Shown here in pieces: positions 38,756-42,068 of a stretch of 42,080 bases of DNA. The position numbers and the translations under genes are program-made. The DNA is taken from NCBI GenBank assembly GCA_020722265.1, contig DYLA01000004.1, positions 1 through 42,080 on the forward strand. The letters run 5' to 3'. The notes under the pieces are model-generated. The model had not been told where the DNA came from, searched no databases, and worked only from the letters and a program-made list of their open reading frames with translations. The stretch's first letter is position 1; each line of letters opens with the position of its first letter. The stretch comes from Anaerolinea sp. (lineage in GTDB: Bacteria; Chloroflexota; Anaerolineae; UBA4142).

Positions 38756-41136
38756 TACTGCTGCTCGCGGCGAGTGTCTGGCTGATCGCGTTGTTCATCG
38801 CGCTGGCACAGCGCCGCGCCCGCGAGGCTTGGCGGGATGTGCTTGCCATCGGCGTCGTCGGCGCGGCGACCGCCGGTTTTTTCTGGCGATTGCTCGCGGG
38901 CCAGGTGTGGATGCCGGCAGGCGGCGGCGACCTCGCCCAGTTTCTCTATCCGACGTACTCCTTCGCTGCCGCGTGGTGGCGGCGCGGCGTCCTCCCGCTC
39001 TGGAACCCGTACCTCTTTGCCGGCGCGCCGTTCCTCGGCGACATCCAGTCCGGCATTTTCTATCCGCTCAACCTTCTTACTTTTCTGCTTTCCTCGCCGC
39101 TCACCTTCCGTGATTTGGAATTTCTTTCCGTCCTGCATTTTTTCCTCGCCGGCGCGGGGATGTATCTCTTTTTGCGATTTGGGCGCTGGGGACGACCAAG
39201 TTCGAGGTTCGCGGTTCAAGGTTCAAACTTTGAATCACGAACTGGGGACTCGCTCGCGCGTCCTGCCGCGCTCGCTGGCGCGCTCGCGTTCGAGTTTAGC
39301 GATCTGTTCATCACGCACTTTGGGAATCTCAACTTGATCGCGGTCGCGGCGTGGCTGCCGCTGGTGCTGCTGTTCTACCGCCGCGCGGTGACGGAGCGGC
39401 GCGCGGCGCTCGCGGCGATTGCCGGCATTCTGCTCGCGGTAGCATTCCTCGCCGGGCACATTCAAGCGTTCTTGTTCATCGTGTTCGCGCTGGGGCTGTT
39501 CGCGATTTGGATGACGGTGACCGGCAGTCGGCGGTCTGCGCTCGTCGGTCTAGCCGTCGTCGCGCTCGTCGCGTTTGGGCTCGCTGCGCCCGCGCTGCTC
39601 CCCGCGCTCGAATTCGCGCAACACACGGTGCGCGCCACCTTTGCGTACGAGCAAGCCGCGCAGTACTCGCTGCCGCCGGCGCAATTGATCGGGCTGTTCG
39701 TTCCCGGCTTTTTCGGACGCGGACCGCAGCACGCGTGGGGACCCTGGGCGCGCGTCGAAGTCGGCTACATCGGCGTCCTGCCGATGCTGCTCGCGCTGCT
39801 CGCGTTGATTCTGCGCCGCGACGCGCCGACGCGATTCTGGGGCGCGTTCGCGCTCGTGGGGCTCGCGCTCGCGCTGGGCGGCTATGCGATTTTGCACGGT
39901 TGGCTCTACCAACTGGTTCCCGGCTTTGGGCAGTTGCGCGCCCCCGCGCGATTCATCGTGCTGATGGATTTCGCGCTCGCCGCGCTCGCCGCGTTCGGGT
40001 TCGATACACTCTTGCGCGCCCTCCCACACGAAAGTGCGCGCGCGTTCAAGCGTATCGTTCGCGCCGCGCCGTTCGTGTTTTGGCTGATCGCGCTGCCCGC
40101 CGGCGCGACGGCGTACGCGATTTTGATTCTGGGGCAGGGACAGGACGCGGTCTTGTTCGCGCGCATCGCCAACGCCGCGAACGCGCTGGCGTTCTTCATC
40201 CTGCTCCTCGCGTGCGCGTGCGCGCTCGTCATCGCGCGCGGCACACGCTTCTTTCACCCGCGCGTGTGGGCAATCGCCGCGCTCGCGCTCATCGGTTTCG
40301 ATCTCTTTTCGCTTGGCGCGTACGTGGACGCGAGTACCGACGACCCAACGCGCGTGTTCGAGCATCCGGGCGCGGTGGCGTTTCTCCGGAGCGATGGCAG
40401 TCTCTTTCGCGTGGACTCACAGGGAACCGGCGTGGAGAACGTGTGGACTGCCGACACCGCGCTCCTCTACGGCATCGGCGACGTGAACGGCGACAACCCG
40501 CTCGTGCTAGCGGATTTCGACCGGTACTGGCAAGCGCTTGGCAGTCGCTCGTCGCCGCTGTACGATTTGCTCAACACCAAGTATTTGCTCGCGCGCAAGA
40601 GCGCGCCGGTGGATCGCGCGAAATTCCACCTCGCGTTCGATGACGCGGCGTTCAATATTTACACGAACGCGCGTGTCCTGCCGCGCGCGTTCATCGTCGC
40701 TGAGGCGCGCACCGCGACGGATCACGCTGCCGCGCTCGCGGCGATTCACGCCCCCGACTTTGACCCCGCGCGGATGGCGGTGCTGGAGACCGCCGACACG
40801 CGCGCGGCGGCGGTCGGTGGTCTGCCGTCGGCAGTCGCAATCGTTGGCTATGGTCCCAACGAGATTCTGCTGGAGGTGACCGCGCCGGGCGGCGGCATGT
40901 TGGTGTTGAGCGAGGTGTACTATCCCGGCTGGCGCGCGTGGGTGGACGATCGCGAAACGTCCGTGCTGCGCGCGAACTATCTTTTCCGCGCGGTCGAGTT
41001 GCCGGCGGGGGCGCGTCGCGTGCGGCTGCTGTACGATCCGCTGTCGTTCCAGGCCGGGGTGGGGCTATTCGCGGCGACCGCGCTGGCGTTGGGCGCGACC
41101 GTTTGGTGGCAATGGCGCTCGCGGCGCGGGGCTTGA
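38752..41136 (+). CDS. YfhO-like membrane protein
   Basis: YPTYSFAAAWWRRGVLPLWNPYLFAGAPFLGDIQSGIFYPLNLL; LLNTKYLLARKSAP; VLSEVYYPGWRAWVDDRETSVLRANYLFRAVELPAGARRV; ATGA overlap with previous gene. Confidence 0.85.
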   Translation: MILLLAASVWLIALFIALAQRRAREAWRDVLAIGVVGAATAGFFWRLLAGQVWMPAGGGDLAQFLYPTYSFAAAWWRRGVLPLWNPYLFAGAPFLGDIQSGIFYPLNLLTFLLSSPLTFRDLEFLSVLHFFLAGAGMYLFLRFGRWGRPSSRFAVQGSNFESRTGDSLARPAALAGALAFEFSDLFITHFGNLNLIAVAAWLPLVLLFYRRAVTERRAALAAIAGILLAVAFLAGHIQAFLFIVFALGLFAIWMTVTGSRRSALVGLAVVALVAFGLAAPALLPALEFAQHTVRATFAYEQAAQYSLPPAQLIGLFVPGFFGRGPQHAWGPWARVEVGYIGVLPMLLALLALILRRDAPTRFWGAFALVGLALALGGYAILHGWLYQLVPGFGQLRAPARFIVLMDFALAALAAFGFDTLLRALPHESARAFKRIVRAAPFVFWLIALPAGATAYAILILGQGQDAVLFARIANAANALAFFILLLACACALVIARGTRFFHPRVWAIAALALIGFDLFSLGAYVDASTDDPTRVFEHPGAVAFLRSDGSLFRVDSQGTGVENVWTADTALLYGIGDVNGDNPLVLADFDRYWQALGSRSSPLYDLLNTKYLLARKSAPVDRAKFHLAFDDAAFNIYTNARVLPRAFIVAEARTATDHAAALAAIHAPDFDPARMAVLETADTRAAAVGGLPSAVAIVGYGPNEILLEVTAPGGGMLVLSEVYYPGWRAWVDDRETSVLRANYLFRAVELPAGARRVRLLYDPLSFQAGVGLFAATALALGATVWWQWRSRRGA
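39199..39250. repeat. Period-7 repeat (GTTCRMG-type) inside YfhO-like gene
   Basis: gttcgag gttcgcg gttcaag gttcaaa, then TTCAAA-C-TTTGAA. Confidence 0.7.
40805..40842. repeat. Degenerate period-7 repeat inside YfhO-like gene
   Basis: ggcggcggtcggtggtctgccgtcggcagtcgcaatcg; weaker periodicity. Confidence 0.4.
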
Positions 41137-41161
41137 CACGCCCGCTAATCCGCGATAGTAT
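41133..41161 (+). promoter_or_regulatory. Sigma70-like promoter TTGACA-N17-TAGTAT for rsfS
   Basis: TTGACA 41133-41138 (overlapping the YfhO stop), TAGTAT 41156-41161. Confidence 0.65.
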
Positions 41162-41187
41162 AAGCCACCACATCCTAGGAGGATGCT

Positions 41188-41535
41188 ATTCTGGAATCCA
41201 ACGACTTGGCTCGCTTGATCGTTGACCTCGTTTCGGACAAAAAGGGCGCGGATATTCTGCTCCTCGATACGCGCGCGGTCTCTATCATCGCCGACTATTT
41301 CGTGATCGCGACCGGCGAGAGCGAACGGCAAATCAAAGCCATCGCCGACGAAATCCAAAAGCACTTGAAGAAACATACGGTCCTACCGCTCGGCGTGGAG
41401 GGAACACCGGCTTCGGGCTGGGTCCTCCTCGATTACAACAGTGTCATCGTCCATCTTTTTAGCCCTGCGCTCCGCGACTATTACCGGCTAGAGAAACTCT
41501 GGGAGCGCGCACCCGTCGTGGTGCGGATACAATGA
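41188..41535 (+). CDS. rsfS: Ribosomal silencing factor RsfS (likely ATT or CTG start)
   Basis: LESNDLARLIVDLVSDKKGADILLLDTRAVSIIADYFVIATGESERQIKAIADEI; AGGAGG at 41177-41182; in-frame ATT 41188/CTG 41191; ORF track start TTG 41206 is far from the SD. Confidence 0.9.
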   Translation: MLESNDLARLIVDLVSDKKGADILLLDTRAVSIIADYFVIATGESERQIKAIADEIQKHLKKHTVLPLGVEGTPASGWVLLDYNSVIVHLFSPALRDYYRLEKLWERAPVVVRIQ

Positions 41536-41555
41536 ACGTAGGGGGGAGATGCAAA

Positions 41556-41582
41556 ACGGCGCGGGTCCGAACCCCGCGCCGT
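41556..41582. terminator. Terminator between convergent rsfS and ndk
   Basis: ACGGCGCGGG-tccgaac-CCCGCGCCGT. Confidence 0.7.
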
Positions 41583-41618
41583 CTTCTGTCTCCGGCTCAC
41601 TCTCCCCTCTCCTACGGT

Positions 41619-42068
41619 TCACTCGTTCACCCACCGATCCACCTCGCGCGTGTACGAGAGCAACTCCTCCGGCTTGAACCACAGCGCGATTTCATTCGCC
41701 GCCGTTTCGGGCGCGTCGGATGCGTGGATGAGATTGCGCAGCCCCATCAGCGCGTAATCGCCGCGAATCGTGCCGGCGGCTGCTTCCCACGGACGCGTCG
41801 CGCCGACCATCGTGCGCACCACACTAATCGCCTCGTGTCCCTCCAGCACCATCGCGACGACCGGGCTGGAGCCGATGTAATTCACCAACCCCTCGTAAAA
41901 GAACTTGCCTTTGTGAACGGCATAATGCTCCTCAGCCAAGTCGTGGCTCACTTGGACCATTTTCAGCGCGACGATTTTCAATCCGCGCTCTTCGAAGCGC
42001 GCCAAGATTTTGCCGACGAGCCCGCGTTGCACGCCGTCGGGTTTGACGATGACAAGTGTCTGTTGCAA
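41619..42068 (-). CDS. ndk: Nucleoside diphosphate kinase
   Basis: MQQTLVIVKPDGVQRGLVGKILARFEERGLKIVALKM; VVAMVLEGHEAISVVRTMVGATRPWEAAAGTIRGDYA; NLIHASDAPETAANEI. Confidence 0.97.
   Translation of the reverse strand: MQQTLVIVKPDGVQRGLVGKILARFEERGLKIVALKMVQVSHDLAEEHYAVHKGKFFYEGLVNYIGSSPVVAMVLEGHEAISVVRTMVGATRPWEAAAGTIRGDYALMGLRNLIHASDAPETAANEIALWFKPEELLSYTREVDRWVNE

Follow-up and report, generated by a model that had tools for sequence, protein, structure and literature searches.

Start Codon Candidates at the rsfS Locus

Within the 42,080-nucleotide stretch of Anaerolinea sp. DNA analyzed here (the window), the gene rsfS poses the question of where its translation begins. An in-frame TAG bounds the reading frame upstream, and the first in-frame ATG, GTG or TTG is TTG 41206. 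A sequence-only reading of the locus had argued that no ATG or GTG could serve as the start, that initiation at TTG 41206 would truncate the protein and that a rare start codon stands behind a strong Shine–Dalgarno (SD) sequence, with ATT 41188 as its first choice and CTG 41191 as its second. The comparison with relatives described below agrees with the first three points and reverses the order of the last two: the rsfS of Anaerolinea sp. almost certainly starts at CUG 41191, and the predicted N-terminus is M-E-S-N-D-L-A-R, not M-L-E-S-N-D. The features of the locus are listed in Table 1.

Table 1. Features of the rsfS locus, with positions in the window
Feature	Position	Strand	Basis
Promoter match, sigma-70 type, TTGACA-N17-TAGTAT	41133..41161	+	Consensus match; recurs in family
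In-frame TAG, upstream bound of the rsfS frame; overlapped by AGGAGG	41176..41178	+	Sequence
Shine–Dalgarno AGGAGG, 8 nt 5' of CTG	41177..41182	+	GGAGG type, spacing conserved in relatives, on average a better SD than in the control genes
ATT proposed in the sequence-only reading; not conserved as a start	41188..41190	+	Variable column, ATT in 11/186 loci
Predicted CTG start codon of rsfS	41191..41193	+	Column CTG in 122/186 Chloroflexota loci and 12/12 family members
rsfS coding sequence read from CTG, 114 aa + stop	41191..41535	+	TIGR00090/PF02410; N-terminus alignment to solved RsfS chains
Terminator-like hairpin between rsfS and convergent ndk	41556..41582	+	Consensus match only

The product belongs to the RsfS / Iojap family, scoring 117.8 bits against TIGR00090 (cut-off 56.9) and 114.2 bits against PF02410 (E = 6.4e-33), and the genome holds one copy. 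Read from the CTG, query residue n corresponds to chain residue n in five solved RsfS chains (9q40, 2o5a, 2id1, 6sj6 and 30qz), and this residue-for-residue match places the CTG at their residue 1. By analogy with homologues solved on 50S subunits, the Anaerolinea protein would bind uL14 and block subunit joining. The AGGAGG lies 5 nt from the ATT and 8 nt from the CTG, as the sequence-only reading had it. The hexamer occurs 22 times in the whole window against 8.7 expected and is weak evidence taken alone; the start anatomy stands above chance because it is conserved in relatives.

The CTG Is Conserved across Chloroflexota

In all 12 sampled members of the family (L002-L013), the codon at the position of 41191 is CTG. 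Just ahead of it stands ATT, ACC, GCT, ACT, CTT or ACA, with ATT in five of the 12. Across 186 distinct Chloroflexota rsfS loci, the start column holds CTG in 122, ATC in nine, ATA in three, GTG in five, ATG in three and TTG in two, the other 42 rows starting at another position or being unresolved. Within the class sample the proportion is 46/54, and in three further loci of the same class a CTG follows an SD farther upstream, by two codons in L031 and L079 and by seven in L014. An SD lies 5 to 9 nt from the codon in 107 of the 122 CTG loci, most often at 7 nt and usually as GGAGG. In 56 CTG loci with an SD, not one ATG, GTG or TTG occurs from the upstream in-frame stop to codon 5, and in 19 CTG loci the stop lies zero or one codon ahead of the CTG, as in L137 with GGAGGCCATAA-CTG (TAA-CTG). 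An SD-like sequence also accompanies a canonical codon farther upstream in 11 of the CTG loci.

The preference is for this codon among those for leucine: CTG makes up 122/141 of the leucine codons at the start column, 37% (770/2100) elsewhere in these genes and 43/130 in a nearby leucine column, column 6. The nominal P values for the excess (2e-34 and 6e-20) are overstated, since the loci are related. On the protein tree, in which many forks of this short gene are unresolved, CTG occurs in nearly all major groups with the changes scattered, and our own tally of the tables puts CTG with an SD in about 30 family-level groups within the class and in about 20 beyond it. The gene combines a conserved codon outside ATG, GTG and TTG with a productive SD spacing, two of the properties of the conserved non-canonical start class to which infC belongs. 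The case for initiation at the CTG is thus a comparative one.

Initiation at ATT 41188, giving M-L-E-S-N-D, would be compatible with a spacing inside the usual range, with the existence of AUU starts for infC and pcnB and with the 11 loci that have ATT in that column. The conservation of the ATT, which had been proposed as a check, was not found: elsewhere the column reads CTT, ACT, TTT, ACC, GAG, AAG and so on, in L137 it is the stop codon TAA, and it is the next codon, CTG, that is invariant in the family. We therefore regard a start at the ATT as very unlikely. Still less credible is a truncated RsfS beginning at TTG 41206, as in a mechanical list of open reading frames; the ORF tool reported this TTG, a standard alternative start, but relatives have CTG, CTC, CTA, CTT or GTC at this position, the window offers no SD at productive spacing ahead of the TTG, and the first residues that align with the solved RsfS chains would be lost. 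A sequencing or assembly error by which a true ATG was lost or frameshifted in this metagenome-assembled genome has a negligible chance of being the cause, for although the metagenome assembly behind the window is incomplete and there is an ATG out of frame a short way upstream, independent assemblies of many genera, including the single-contig genomes that hold L083 and L146, share the CTG. That out-of-frame ATG, at 41183, does open the frame MLFWNPTTWLA followed by a stop, as had been noticed, but as the start of a leader peptide we rejected it: it abuts the AGGAGG with zero spacing and is absent in relatives.

Control Genes and Initiator tRNA

A canonical start near the domain is missing in none of the related genomes for efp (0/30), ndk (0/30) and rbfA (0/30), scored by presence or absence of canonical codons, as the codon-blind SD start caller put some control starts one codon off. 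For infC, in contrast, it is missing nearby in 26/30 loci (L219-L248), where ATC, ATA or ATT follows the SD instead, and the parallel with infC drawn in the sequence-only reading is apt. Ordinary genes thus use ordinary starts in these genomes, and infC and rsfS are the exceptions. The SD of rsfS is also stronger, with a mean perfect match of 6.2 nt against 4.8, 5.6 and 2.8 nt in control genes.

An altered initiator tRNA was rejected as the cause of a permissive CUG, since the source genome has the usual GGGCTCATAACCC anticodon stem-loop. In the order-mates G015 and G016 (L344 823-1540, L346), and also in G017 and G019, the anticodon loop of the initiator tRNA gene is interrupted by an insertion of ~270-650 bases. 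The insertions match the group I intron family RF00028 with E values of 1e-9 and 5e-11, slightly below the gathering score, and within that of L344 lies a 158-aa ORF, possibly for a homing endonuclease.

Variation among Lineages

As about one-third of the loci differ, the CUG is not indispensable. ATC or ATA occupies the start column in Chloroflexales-like genomes (L055, L096, L110, L112, L161, L173 and others), and there is no nearby in-frame canonical alternative in L110, L112 and L173 or in the Anaerolineae row L171 (ATA). Three loci (L049, L050, L058), with an ATG that lies two codons upstream and very near the SD, are ambiguous. In a Ktedonobacteria-like family (f58), rsfS starts at a GTG that lies a few codons upstream, and ATG, GTG or TTG is found in scattered Chloroflexota lineages. 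Beyond Chloroflexota, a small sample drawn from plasmid-collection records only shows rsfS starting with TTG in Escherichia coli, Aeromonas and Listeria and with ATG in Bacillus, Pseudomonas, Paenibacillus, Limosilactobacillus and others. Three records titled Micrarchaeota and Deltaproteobacteria (L130, L179, L184) carry a Chloroflexota-type rsfS with a CTG start and are probably misbinned or mislabelled contigs.

Promoter and Leader of rsfS

The sigma-70-type match in Table 1 is the sole promoter match on either strand in 40900-41650, where 0.3 were expected, and its -35 box shares bases with the stop codon of the preceding gene. TTGACA-N17-TANNAT recurs in 10/12 family members at a nearly constant distance. 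From this match, we predict a transcript start near 41168 and a leader of ~23 nt. An RNA element in the leader was rejected: an Rfam search gave no convincing match, and a leader of the predicted length is too short for a riboswitch. Convergent with rsfS lies ndk (41619-42068, minus strand), with a TTG start behind GAGGAGG, and in many relatives too ndk lies within ~1 kb of rsfS.

A Possible Throttle on RsfS Synthesis

The retention of a non-canonical rsfS start across most of Chloroflexota argues that it is selected and not accidental. That the gene starts at CUG and that this start limits its expression is, taken jointly, quite likely, and the start probably both keeps output low and is under selection for doing so. 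In the mechanism that we propose, a short-leader rsfS mRNA would be made from the gene's own promoter, and the ordinary initiator tRNA, brought in by the strong SD, would read CUG 41191. CUG forms less stable initiation complexes than AUG, GUG or UUG, and IF3 blocks premature 50S joining and permits accurate start codon selection (PMC11497404); the unstable complexes on rsfS would thus be proof-read by IF3 before the 50S subunit joins. RsfS itself binds uL14 of the 50S subunit and, together with IF3 on the 30S subunit, keeps 70S ribosomes from forming (PMC13246957). Taken together, these properties imply that rsfS translation should be low and sensitive to IF3 and 50S, falling with a rise in free IF3 or a shortage of free 50S, such as would arise from RsfS capping the 50S subunits. 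The CUG start would then act as a throttle on the synthesis of an anti-association factor. A feedback through IF3 or 50S joining is plausible. Sensitivity to the supply of 50S would mean that RsfS could limit itself, and we tentatively suggest such a feedback, in which capped 50S subunits would leave IF3-sensitive CUG complexes without a partner and rsfS translation would drop, although we would not call it probable.

A start without any regulation, in which little RsfS is needed and the strong SD compensates for the poor codon, has a somewhat better prospect than the feedback, if one still short of even. The SD is unusually good, several lineages with GTG, TTG or ATG still keep rsfS, and a low-demand gene could tolerate a weak start. 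Against this, a single substitution would turn CTG into ATG, GTG or TTG, yet CTG has been kept in ~50 family-level groups, and in Chloroflexales-like genomes the chief replacement, ATC or ATA, is non-canonical too.

Comparison with Known Non-Canonical Starts

Conserved non-canonical starts are few in bacteria, and rsfS would be a second anti-association factor with one, in the form of a phylum-wide CUG. The textbook case is infC, encoding IF3, whose start takes part in autoregulation by IF3. Like infC, rsfS has a deeply conserved non-canonical start behind an SD, and its product would likewise block subunit joining. The two differ in that RsfS acts on the 50S side and in that the rsfS codon is mainly CUG, a first-position mismatch, whereas infC has AUU, AUC or AUA, mismatched at the third position; moreover, infC is autoregulated, while for the rsfS of Chloroflexota we only infer autoregulation. 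If true, the self-regulation of RsfS would be a 50S-side counterpart of that of infC, kept across a phylum, and finding such a CUG start in another anti-association factor points to start codon choice as a recurrent means of controlling subunit joining.

In the open-access literature that we searched, we found no mention of rsfS starting at CTG, and one arXiv study (Gvozdjak and Samanta 2020), which is described where PMC9845219 cites it as dealing with genes preferring non-AUG starts, may list the gene. The kind of start, a conserved non-canonical codon with a strong SD, is known already from infC and Staphylococcus aureus; what appears to be new is its occurrence in this gene, with this codon and at the depth of a whole phylum. 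The findings indicate that CUG can be a genuine, selected start in bacteria and that programs taking only ATG, GTG and TTG as starts probably misannotate RsfS N-termini throughout Chloroflexota.

The same gene has a weak start in E. coli, where rsfS (ybeB) begins at UUG (PMC10917681), as with the TTG of Aeromonas and Listeria; UUG is, however, a standard start that annotation software calls, whereas the CUG of Chloroflexota is weaker and generally not called. The pcnB gene of E. coli likewise has an inefficient start, an AUU that limits synthesis (Binns and Masters 2002, as cited in PMC13009471), but it is unrelated to rsfS and does not encode a ribosome factor. In S. aureus, extended SDs direct the AUA and AUU starts of infC, ccpN and cvfC1 (PMC13009471). 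The starts of ccpN (AUA) and cvfC1 (AUU) resemble that of rsfS in that a strong SD directs a conserved non-canonical start, but they concern other genes and codons, are reported to be conserved among staphylococci and were shown by Ribo-RET, whereas the start of rsfS is predicted from sequence comparison across a phylum.
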